Virus record (IMG/VR): IMGVR_UViG_3300004805_000032
Location: 1-24,824 of that record
From: a virus
Length of the DNA: 24,824 bases
Direction: 5' to 3' (one strand)
Shown here: positions 1,704 to 12,081 of the stretch, one piece after another
Layout: each line of letters opens with the position of its first letter
How positions within the stretch are numbered: position 1 is the stretch's first letter
Notes under the pieces: generated by a model
What the model was told of the DNA's origin: nothing
Seen by the model: only the letters and a program-made list of their open reading frames with translations
Database searches by the model: none
Program-made: the position numbers and the translations under genes

Positions 1704-1735
1704 TACTAATGCATAAATTACTAGAATACTGCCCT
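1704..1735 (-). promoter_or_regulatory. Late promoter-like element, copy 1
   Basis: Minus-strand AGGGC, 17 nt, then TGCATTAGTA. The identical spacing and near-identical boxes recur at 5665, 9327 and 12050, always in gaps of the minus-strand module. Here it lies just downstream of the capsid terminator and about 95 nt before the start of the 189-residue structural gene. TGCATTAGTA would be the -10 box and AGGGC the -35 box. The assignment as a promoter is inference from recurrence and position. Confidence 0.7.
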
Positions 1736-1736
1736 T

Positions 1737-1769
1737 AAAAAATAAAAAAGCCACCCAAAGGTGGCTTTT
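1737..1769 (-). terminator. Strong rho-independent terminator after the capsid gene
   Basis: Minus-strand AAAAGCCACC-TTTG-GGTGGC followed by TTTTTTATTTTTT: a six-bp GC stem extended by A-T pairs, a 4-nt loop and a long T tract. It lies 24 nt after the stop codon of the major capsid gene. It would also work weakly on the plus strand. Confidence 0.9.
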
Positions 1770-1792
1770 CTACATTAAGTTTCCTTAATTAA

Positions 1793-2710
1793 TTACAGAC
1801 CAGAAGTGCCGTAGATGTTACGAGCATCATGCCAACCTGTAGCATAACGTTCTGTAGCTTTATAGCGCATTGAGTCAGTCTCAAAGTCACCTTCCATAGA
1901 TTTCTCCATTGGGCGGCGCATTACTAACATCAAACCGTTTTCAGCGTCAGTTTGTACCCACCAAGCTTTGCTTGAGCTCAAACGTGTTACCACGTGTGTG
2001 CCTTTTGGTAACATGCCTGTTGATTTGATTGGGTTCAAATCGTTATCAGCTGTACCTGAACGCAACACAGATTTCAAGATAACTTCAGCTTGAAATTCTA
2101 GTGCTGGTGGAACAACCAATTGTTCTGCTTTAAGACGAATACGTTTACCGTTGTTGTCTACTGCAGAGCGGATTTGGATCAACATTTGTTCTACAGATGT
2201 TTGTGACAGTGAAGCCGCTGTAGATAGTTGGTTAGAGTAAGATGCACCGTTAGCAATCGGGTGAGCTGTGTTAATCAAAGTAACGCCATCACCACCTACG
2301 TAACCTGAAGTGAACGCGAAGTTCAACAAGTTAGCACATAGTGTTTCCTTAGTTTCAATCATAGATTGAGCTAAGTGTTTAGCGAATGTTGAACCGATAC
2401 GGATGTGATCACCATCTTCCATCAAAACTTTGGTCAAAGCGTAAGCCAAGCCATAGATTTGGTAGATGAAACGTGTGATATACAAAGTACCGCCTTGGTC
2501 GTAGCTTACTGGAGTGCCGTCAGGCATTGCAGGAGCTGCGTTCATACCAAATAACATTACTTCTTCGTGATAGTTACGTGGAATACCTTGGATCTGATCT
2601 ACAAACCCTTTCCACTCATCGTCGCGTTGTTCATAAACGCCATCAAAAACTTCGTTGATAATCGGTTCGACTACCGCACGAAAGTCTGTACTACGCATTG
2701 GAGTTGCCAT
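1793..2710 (-). CDS. Major capsid protein
   Basis: A 305-residue protein with the look of HK97-fold major capsid proteins. It has an N-terminal segment without a long leader (RSTDFRAVVEPIINEVFDG), an E-loop-like region around residues 60-80 (AMPDGTPVSYDQGGTLYITR), a helix with AKHLAQSMIETKETLCANLLNFAF (roughly 110-135) and a C-terminal part with RRPMEKSMEGDFETDSMRYKATERYATGW. It is followed by the strongest terminator in the window and has an AAAGGA site before the ATG, fitting very high expression. It sits downstream of the scaffold-like gene, in the classic portal-scaffold-capsid order. The short N-terminus and separate scaffold gene suggest no delta domain. Identification rests on length, motifs and context, not on a search. 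Confidence 0.85.
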   Translation of the reverse strand: MATPMRSTDFRAVVEPIINEVFDGVYEQRDDEWKGFVDQIQGIPRNYHEEVMLFGMNAAPAMPDGTPVSYDQGGTLYITRFIYQIYGLAYALTKVLMEDGDHIRIGSTFAKHLAQSMIETKETLCANLLNFAFTSGYVGGDGVTLINTAHPIANGASYSNQLSTAASLSQTSVEQMLIQIRSAVDNNGKRIRLKAEQLVVPPALEFQAEVILKSVLRSGTADNDLNPIKSTGMLPKGTHVVTRLSSSKAWWVQTDAENGLMLVMRRPMEKSMEGDFETDSMRYKATERYATGWHDARNIYGTSGL

Positions 2711-2729
2711 TGCTATTTCCTTTCGTTAA

Positions 2730-3404
2730 TTAGTTAACCGTTGCTGAAGGCGCACGGAATTGGTTATTACAGATTTCAACTTGAAGGATTGTGTATGTAT
2801 CACCCCAAGCATTTGTGTTACCTGCTGGGTATGCTACTTCACGACCTAAGCCAACGCAACGAACTTGACCTTGAACGCCTGATGCTACTGGAGTTGCAAG
2901 CAATGCTGTTGTTGAAAAACCAGCTCCGCCTGAACCAATTGCAGTACCATCTTGAACACGGTATCCTGTTGCTGTTTCAAAGTTAAATTCTGCACCGATG
3001 TTCAATGCTGAAACTGAACCGTTAACTTGCGCTTCATAAATAATACCTGGGTCTTGGAAGATCCAGAAAATGATTTGAGTAGATGCATCAAGTGTTGTTT
3101 TAGCAGCGTATTTAGCTACTGAACGACGACCGTCTGAGTTTGTGTATTCAACACCATCAAACACGCCATAAACTTTGCCTGATGCGCCAGCTTGAGCAGC
3201 TTGGATTAATTGGCCAGATGAGTTAAGCGCTACTGGTTGGTATTGATAAAATGATTGACCTGATGATAATCCATAGATAGCTGTAGAGCTAACTGTAGAG
3301 AAGTTACCATTAAATGTGTTAGATCCAGCAAATGGTACTGCGCGATCCAAACCACTTGGGTGGTAAGCCGGTTTCAGGCCAAAGGGTTGTAATGTCGTTG
3401 ACAT
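2730..3404 (-). CDS. Capsid-accessory/structural protein
   Basis: A 224-residue protein that opens with LQPFGLKPAYHPSGLDR, a conserved start I associate with phage head proteins next to the capsid gene. Most of it is beta-rich and Gly/Ser/Ala-rich, with a segment GVEYTNSDGRRSVAKYAAKTT near the middle. It lies 19 nt upstream of the capsid gene and shares its AAGGAA-type ribosome-binding site. A head decoration or minor capsid role is inferred from the neighbourhood. No catalytic motif is visible. Confidence 0.65.
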   Translation of the reverse strand: MSTTLQPFGLKPAYHPSGLDRAVPFAGSNTFNGNFSTVSSTAIYGLSSGQSFYQYQPVALNSSGQLIQAAQAGASGKVYGVFDGVEYTNSDGRRSVAKYAAKTTLDASTQIIFWIFQDPGIIYEAQVNGSVSALNIGAEFNFETATGYRVQDGTAIGSGGAGFSTTALLATPVASGVQGQVRCVGLGREVAYPAGNTNAWGDTYTILQVEICNNQFRAPSATVN

Positions 3405-3431
3405 ATTGTTTTTTCCTTTGTAATTAAGTTG

Positions 3432-3986
3432 TTATTGAAAACGAATATTTTTTGTCGCTTTGTTAGCTTCTCTTTCCATTTCCAAAATGCCACCTTCCAA
3501 TATAGATCTGCCGCCTTTGCGATCTTGAGCAGTGTCCCGAACTGAAGCCGTAATATTACGTTGGTGCTCTAGGGGATCTTCAAGATGAAGCATGCGCATC
3601 ACTTCTTGGTAAACGTCTTCTGGAATCTTAAAAAGAACCATTTCATTGCAACTAATACAGCCTTCAAACTTGCCCGAGCTCATCTTACCTAGTCCTTCAA
3701 AGCCTTTCCCTAATTCCGAAGCTTTAACTGGTTCATAACCCAACGCCATGCGTTTGTCGATACTGTCATATGAGTTGGTGGTACTCAACCAACACAAGTG
3801 CATCCCTGGCACTGTTCCTGCAGGAATGTCCGGCAGTGCACTATTCTGCCATTTGTCTCTAAACGCATCAAGGCGTTCACGACGTGCCACATCATCTGGA
3901 TCTGCAACCATAGAACGTTCAATTACTTCTTGTGCACGTTCGGCCATGCGATCATCTAAATCTCGTTTAATTCTTGTATTAGCCAT
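3432..3986 (-). CDS. Conserved-looking head-module protein, unknown
   Basis: A 184-residue soluble, mostly helical protein. Landmarks are an Arg/Asp-rich N-terminus (VADPDDVARRERLDAFRDKW), a central part with MHLCWLSTTNSYDSIDKRMALGYEPVK and a Cys pair in EGCISCNEM. The C-terminal Lys/Arg/Glu-rich helix is probably exposed. It starts 5 nt after the scaffold-like gene's stop, with AAAGGA overlapping that stop codon, so translation is likely coupled. Such proteins sit between scaffold and capsid in related phages. I infer a virion-assembly role but cannot name a function. Confidence 0.6.
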   Translation of the reverse strand: MANTRIKRDLDDRMAERAQEVIERSMVADPDDVARRERLDAFRDKWQNSALPDIPAGTVPGMHLCWLSTTNSYDSIDKRMALGYEPVKASELGKGFEGLGKMSSGKFEGCISCNEMVLFKIPEDVYQEVMRMLHLEDPLEHQRNITASVRDTAQDRKGGRSILEGGILEMEREANKATKNIRFQ

Positions 3987-11788: not shown

Positions 11789-11799
11789 TAATATATTCC

Positions 11800-11817
11800 A
11801 GACAAAATACTTTGTCT
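11800..11817 (-). promoter_or_regulatory. Hairpin before the Hint gene
   Basis: A perfect 7-bp stem (minus strand AGACAAA-GTAT-TTTGTCT) lies 11 nt before the ATG at 11788 and directly abuts the ribosome-binding region. It could modulate translation. Upstream, TTGCTT-16 nt-TATTAA is a weak candidate promoter for the Hint-terminase unit, which the pqqA terminator would otherwise cut off. Confidence 0.4.
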
Positions 11818-11848
11818 TTAATAAAACGCAAAATATTACAAGCAAACT

Positions 11849-11868
11849 ATGCACCCCGAAGGGTGCAT
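11849..11868 (-). terminator. UUCG-tetraloop hairpin after pqqA
   Basis: An eight-bp perfect stem, ATGCACCC-TTCG-GGGTGCAT on the minus strand, giving the extra-stable C(UUCG)G tetraloop only in this orientation. It begins 6 nt after the pqqA stop codon. The T tract after it is weak (AGTTTGCTTG), so it may act as an mRNA 3' stabiliser as much as a terminator. Confidence 0.65.
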
Positions 11869-11874
11869 GTCATA

Positions 11875-11946
11875 TTACTTGTTCATTACGTACATTGTTA
11901 CTTCAAATCCAAAACGCATTTCAGTAGCTGCTGGTTTAGTCCACAT
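11875..11946 (-). CDS. pqqA: PqqA: precursor peptide of pyrroloquinoline quinone
   Basis: A 23-residue ORF beginning [19 protein letters not shown] and ending VMNK. It has the length and pattern of proteobacterial PqqA peptides (MWxKPAxxxxRxGxEVTxY). Glu15 and Tyr19, in E-V-T-M-Y, are the two residues that PqqE cross-links and that become PQQ. GGAG lies 8 nt upstream of the ATG. A copy of the late promoter-like element lies about 100 nt upstream, and a UUCG hairpin follows the stop, so the gene is a self-contained late mini-unit. No pqqB-E genes are in the window, so the host would have to process the peptide. It is probably an auxiliary metabolic gene that boosts PQQ for quinoprotein dehydrogenases such as methanol dehydrogenase (inference). 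The match is by memory of the family; no search was run. Confidence 0.9.
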   Translation of the reverse strand: [23 protein letters not shown]

Positions 11947-12049
11947 GATGTATCTCCAAGTTTAAAAATAGTTGTAGGTATAAACTAATCGTTTACATCT
12001 ACACTAATTCATAAACTAACCAATAGCTGGCTAAGTATTATCATGATTA

Positions 12050-12081
12050 TACTAATGCACAAACTGGGCCGTTTCAGCCGT
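12050..12081 (-). promoter_or_regulatory. Late promoter-like element, copy 4 (pqqA)
   Basis: Minus-strand ACGGC, 17 nt, then TGCATTAGTA, with one mismatch to the other copies in the first box. It is the only such element upstream of pqqA and gives a predicted leader near 95 nt. A weaker look-alike (minus TGAATTAGTG, same spacing to an unmatched box) lies at 12002-12033. Confidence 0.65.

Follow-up and report, generated by a model that had tools for sequence, protein, structure and literature searches.

The stretch of DNA analysed here, called the window below, is a 24.8-kb viral contig (positions 1 to 24,824 of IMG/VR record IMGVR_UViG_3300004805_000032), and all positions are counted within it. 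Late genes (capsid, GroES-like, portal and terminase large subunit, TerL) occupy the minus strand. Early genes lie on the plus strand, among them one for a sigma factor and one that is primase-helicase-like, the name primase being our own reading of the sequence. Before genes of the late strand stands a two-part element, AGGGC-N17-TGCATTAGTA, which very probably switches on the virion genes by way of the phage's own shortened sigma factor.

The original prediction described four minus-strand copies of this element with 17 nt between the boxes, and all four sites were confirmed with that spacing. The copies at 1704-1735 and 9327-9358 are exact matches to the minus strand, where 100 shuffles gave an expectation of 0. 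The copies at 5665-5696 and 12050-12081 carry one mismatch each, TGTATTAGTA in the former and ACGGC for AGGGC in the latter, so the claim that AGGGC occurs in all four does not hold to the letter. All copies were also said to lie in intergenic gaps, which is not strictly so at 9327, where the element overlaps the 3′ end of the TerL gene by two bases. A fifth match, at 11008, has three mismatches, falls inside a gene and is most likely due to chance.

Each site stands before a definable gene. The element at 1704-1735 precedes the p189 gene (open reading frame (ORF) 1039-1608, start at 1608), with a predicted transcription start at 1698 and a terminator-like hairpin directly upstream (1773-1742); relatives keep this element before p189. 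At 5665-5696 transcription is predicted to begin at 5659, on the first base of the ATG and hence leaderless, for a 64-amino-acid gene (5465..5659, minus strand) whose family occurs in 19 relatives, and the arrangement of element and gene is also present in relatives. The element at 9327-9358 (predicted start 9321), conserved in position in relatives, lies before a 168-amino-acid gene (start 9298) and the portal gene. The degenerate copy at 12050-12081 (predicted start 12044) precedes pqqA (start 11949), a Hint-like ORF and TerL, which is itself a late gene (9357..10796, minus strand; PF03237/PF17289).

A search of viral contigs with TerL returned 406, of which 80 were kept, and 23 relatives were examined as whole contigs together with the window, the contigs being partial. 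The element pattern, allowing up to two mismatches, was found in 24 of 24. Its presence in the same gaps of close relatives had been made a test of the original prediction, and that is where it was found. Over all fetched DNA we collected 321 distinct elements, with the same spacing and divergent spacers. Within the loci from the TerL search, GGGC-N17-TGNATTAGTA occurs 106 times on one strand and 0 times on the other; a spacing of 16 between GGGC and TGNATTAGTA occurs twice, and no other spacing from 10 to 25 occurs besides 17. Of the GGGCG form, 268 distinct copies have N17, and the remaining spacings between 8 and 29 together account for 4. A chance repeat is rejected by the absence of copies in the shuffles, the strand bias of 106 to 0 and the spacing counts of 268 to 4. 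When the motif string was searched in the open-access literature, with subscription literature outside the search, no phage paper was among the eight matches listed of 19, all eight being unrelated to judge by their titles.

The logo of the element reads T-A/G-GGGC-G, the spacer, TGCATTAGTA, four loose bases, T and A. If that last A is taken as +1, GGGC falls at -36 to -33 and TGCATTAGTA at -15 to -6, with a TG at -15/-14, and by sequence this geometry is the frame of an extended -10 promoter. The A, six nucleotides past the core, is present in 320 of 321 elements and the T at -1 in 316 of 321; the predicted position of +1 is drawn from this conservation. The +1 A is the first base of an ATG in 105 elements, against about 5 expected. 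The reading frames that follow are open for 39 codons in 102 of these, and none has a Shine-Dalgarno sequence upstream. Because the ATG stands at +1 and a Shine-Dalgarno sequence is lacking, the mRNAs of these 105 elements are predicted to be leaderless. This predicted set consists mostly of the 64-amino-acid gene, a gene before Hint/TerL, and TerS. Predicted transcripts from the remaining elements mostly start with AGGA, AAGG or AGAA.

It is extremely unlikely that these are ordinary promoters of the host's main sigma factor or of another bacterial class (sigma54, sigma28 or heat shock). A TATAAT does lie immediately after the core at site 12050 and would favor such a reading. However, none of the four sites reached the threshold of a scan for sigma70 promoters (TTGACA-N16-18-TATAAT-like), which bears out the earlier statement that none is a good sigma70 promoter, and 21 of the 24 contigs encode a phage sigma. 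The logo does not show the GG-N10-GC at -24/-12 of sigma54 promoters, and GGGC-N17-TGCATTAGTA also differs from the known sigma28 and sigma32 boxes. Sigma70 and sigma54 promoters were rejected on the scan of the four sites and the logo. What is found is an element conserved before late genes, in their orientation and not of the sigma70 type, which is the pattern of late promoters served by a phage sigma.

The original prediction held that the phage encodes a sigma factor, and a sigma70-family protein of 203 amino acids was identified at 19139..19750 (plus strand) by Pfam and PDB profile searches and by AlphaFold with Foldseek. It contains regions 1.2, 2 and 3 and no region 4, that is, a single polypeptide with regions 2-3 as in a split sigma. 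The PDB profile search places it as a relative of the primary sigmas SigA and RpoD, and the predicted structure matches the sigma fold at moderate confidence. A search for bacterial relatives gave three distant matches only. The protein is conserved in 20 relatives, and the three contigs that lack it are probably incomplete. Its C-terminus falls where the sigma finger begins, about 12 residues past the region 3 match. A Pfam search of 12 contigs for region 4 gave nothing above the cut-off, and the matches below it occurred only at the sigma itself, in its region 3 part.

The core of the element and the sequence of the sigma factor change together. This comparison used 65 distinct sigmas whose loci carry elements, aligned over 178 columns. 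Residue 136 is Asn in 52 of 52 sigmas from phages with TG in the core and Lys in 13 of 13 from phages with CG, the latter pairing with the core CGTATTAGT(A/T). In an ungapped alignment, position 136 corresponds to H455 of sigma70, for which, together with E458, an interaction with the -14 pair has been reported (PMC2613000). The equivalent of E458 is Glu in nearly all of the phage sigmas, and every element counted has G at -14. A second shift concerns -8, which is T or A in the phages of seven of the 65 sigmas (one mixed with G). Only 4 of the 178 columns fully separate these phages from those with G at -8, and all four lie at 103-110, which aligns with sigma70 422-429 in region 2.3; the changes include the residues aligned with Y425 and T429. 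This genome-wide covariation links the specificity of element and sigma, with the proviso that each shift may have happened just once, and it strongly suggests that the phage sigma reads the core.

Two points weigh against taking the pairing further. The shift from TG to CG, and likewise that from G to T or A at -8, may each reflect a single evolutionary event, and 13 columns set the CG clade apart, residue 136 and twelve others, so individual contacts are not pinned. The tree allows one origin per shift and twelve further columns change with the first, and the data therefore amount to at least two concerted shifts rather than dozens and leave the single residues unproven.

The same covariation bears on the reading that the element is some other conserved DNA or RNA site, such as an operator, a replication or packaging site or an RNA leader. 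Conservation by itself does not name a function. However, the element is oriented with the downstream gene, has the exact geometry of an extended -10 and -35, and keeps the +1 A. Changes in the core go together with changes in sigma residues at promoter-contacting positions, site 1704 has a terminator hairpin immediately upstream, and an Rfam search of the window matched no RNA family. We consider a site other than a promoter very unlikely. As a whole, the element is best explained as a late promoter read by host core polymerase with the phage sigma, a reading of these sequences that we regard as highly probable. This was the proposal of the original prediction, and it is supported by location, geometry, the +1 A, conservation in the gaps of relatives and the covariation of core and sigma.

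The upstream box is a separate matter. The original prediction took the fixed spacing to point to an alternative sigma factor, and this stands for the -10 half; it does not extend to the GGGC box, since the sigma lacks region 4. A sigma of this kind should not read GGGC, and the box most likely has a second polypeptide as its reader. It is unlikely that the phage sigma reads the entire element itself through an unrecognised contact, for instance with its variable C-terminal tail. No transcription factor other than the sigma was identified with certainty, and the weak Sigma70_r4 matches in its region 3 part could be taken in favor of such a contact. Against it, the protein stops where the sigma finger begins, its tail is short and variable and was modelled by AlphaFold with low confidence, and in known holoenzymes -35 is out of reach for region 3.

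The box also divides the promoters into two classes. GGGC is mostly present before p64, p189, portal, p168, TerL, TerS, p151, p346 and p367, whereas in the genome contigs a core without the box precedes DUF2800, SSB, primase, p108 and a PolA-like gene. With-box and box-less elements number 86 and 8 before late genes and 1 and 17 before replication-type genes (Fisher 3e-13). Counted by gene family the figures are 9 and 0 against 1 and 6 (p=0.0009), which is the fairer test because the element counts draw in part on phages that are related to each other. The picture before the Hint/TerL operon is mixed, with the box weak or missing in 6 of 14 elements before the Hint gene. Box-less cores match the core variant of their own genome, CG in G010 and T at -8 in G015. 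Since box-less cores stand before replication genes, the core is not late-specific, and it is the GGGC box that seems to mark late genes. In G014, G011, G009 and G015 a terminator-like hairpin is found before DUF2800, its T run abutting the core-only promoter.

Our best candidate for the box reader is p108, a conserved early protein of about 105 amino acids whose C-terminal part may be region-4-like, and we put the chances of this at about even. It lies outside the window; in the close relative G020 it is encoded beyond the part that the window covers. It was found in 28 of 33 records searched, the misses being fragments, and lies on the strand of the sigma gene in 66 of 66 loci that have both, at a median of 8.3 kb downstream. 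Its best Pfam family is sigma region 4: Sigma70_r4_2 (PF08281) matched 26 of 43 members, with a best E of 2.3e-4, below the cut-off. Several sigma models of NCBIfam matched as well, and the other conserved early proteins that were scanned gave no match to sigma region 4. The most conserved stretch of p108, EKYWRYHF, occupies the position of the would-be recognition helix, and its conservation there fits that of the GGGC box. Although the DNA of the core before p108 lies within codons of the upstream gene, its sequence differs between phage classes, an argument that it is under selection as a promoter.

Several observations speak against p108 in this role. All of its region 4 matches are below the cut-off and cover the first helices only, not the recognition helix. 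A PDB profile search with p108 found no sigma, its profile gave no match in a comparison with four region 4 sequences of sigma factors, and a p108 search of three bacterial genomes found no sigma. Its box-less promoter sits within the last codons of the helicase gene and is absent in part of the group. In further searches, no fusion of sigma and p108 was found, and no p108 was found in annotated phage records. A different candidate, the winged-helix gene at 20923-21255, was rejected as box reader as it occurs only in four close relatives.

The late promoter may also be of the kind proposed, with GGGC bound by an ordinary activator, either a phage DNA-binding protein or a host factor. The weakness of the sigma region 4 assignment of p108 favors an activator, and other conserved early proteins exist, including the neighbor of the sigma gene. 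This neighbor, a protein of 65 amino acids (19743..19940, plus strand), has a start that overlaps the sigma stop and is encoded in every sigma-bearing genome (all 20 related). Its predicted fold is confident (predicted local distance difference test score, pLDDT, 93), but it gave no significant PDB match, and it was rejected as a hidden region 4; the lack of a significant fold match also tells against it as the activator. Against an activator, the box occupies the classical position of region 4, at -36 to -33 and at a near-invariant spacing, and not a variable activator site, and p108 has the distribution and the best Pfam family described above. An activator is a serious contender that we place somewhat below an even chance.

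The system may then work as a split sigma in two steps. The sigma gene is not among the genes behind an element, and host polymerase would make the sigma early. The sigma, with regions 1.2 to 3, and host core polymerase would then use the core-only promoters of replication genes. At each promoter the sigma would direct core RNA polymerase to the -10-like TGCATTAGTA, and transcription would start at the A six nucleotides on. At some genes this A would be the first base of the start codon, giving a leaderless mRNA. A second polypeptide, perhaps p108, would later read GGGC at the position of the -35 element and turn on the virion and packaging genes, moving that polymerase from middle to late specificity, with many late mRNAs starting on the A of the ATG. 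We offer this split, two-step sigma as a hypothesis, tentatively and just short of an even chance. Sequence comparison among these uncultured phages supports the element, its geometry, the gene classes and the pairing of sigma and core, and from there we infer the start sites, the timing and order of events and the identity of the box reader.

Phage sigma factors with dedicated promoters are known from several systems. Phage 7-11 has late promoters of the form GTAAtg-(16)-aCTA served by its sigma SaPh711_gp47, and as here a bipartite consensus of fixed spacing precedes late genes and is used by host core RNA polymerase with a phage sigma (PMC8948821). The sequences differ, and region 4 of gp47 explains the upstream box of 7-11, whereas our sigma has no region 4. 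In phiEco32, phi32_gp36, a phage sigma without region 4, uses the -10-like element tAATGTAtA for middle and late genes, with starts 6-8 bp downstream (PMC8948821). There is no upstream box in phiEco32; in the phages studied here late genes add GGGC and replication genes use the core alone.

In T4 late transcription, which also involves gp33 and the gp45 clamp, gp55 is likewise a sigma-like factor without region 4 that reads a -10-like element. The T4 late consensus is TATAAATA at -13 to -6, and our core in its TATTAGTA form matches it at 6 of 8 positions. The core found here is yATTAGTA, however, and GGGC is conserved at -36 to -33, where it is near-invariant; our sigma is also a relative of primary sigmas and has region 3. 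Sequence at -35 is not conserved in T4 late promoters, and gp33 is a region 4 mimic, such that gp55 and gp33 are thinkable as a split sigma (PMC2988020). Contacts of gp33 are with the DNA backbone only (PMC7892883). Sigma regions are split over two polypeptides in Bacillus subtilis SigO-RsoA (PMC10141391). That is a bacterial acid-stress system without a demonstrated sequence link to p108, and in our model the second part would join at a later stage and bring the specificity for late genes. In the open-access literature searched, we found no description of a -35-like box that is conserved alongside a sigma lacking region 4.

Several other features of the window were recorded. The first gene behind the 12050 element is pqqA (11878..11949, minus strand; PF08042, E=7.3e-11), encoding the precursor peptide of pyrroloquinoline quinone (PQQ). 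A phage pqqA has been reported in a methylotroph phage from Lake Baikal (PMC7678222), and this precedent suggests methylotroph hosts for some members of the group. The stand-alone Hint/intein-like ORF (10790-11788, minus strand) overlaps the start of TerL and is conserved in 19 relatives, and its matches fall inside terminase PHROGs. The virion gene cluster includes a gene for a GroES-like co-chaperonin (4993-5436, minus strand). At 12877-13047, where early and late genes diverge, DnaA boxes (TTATCCACA) form a cluster, three of them exact and two near matches, and mark a possible replication origin. A perfect 28-bp inverted repeat (TAATGAGAATCATTCGCATCTAGGTGAG) with a 16-nt loop at 12621-12692 resembles a Fur-box-like sequence. 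Finally, 12115-12315 and 20069-20269 form a 201-nt inverted repeat, 84% complementary and 7.75 kb apart, with TTGTCACACTTGTCACACTT repeats near both arms.

These results give an uncultured freshwater phage group a readable promoter system, with more than 300 natural promoters and dozens of sigma variants with their matching cores. They offer natural specificity variants for region 3.0 (at -15/-13) and for region 2.3 (at -8), and leaderless late mRNAs are predicted at defined genes. They also raise a testable question of general scope, namely whether a phage may time its genes by the late addition of a missing sigma domain.

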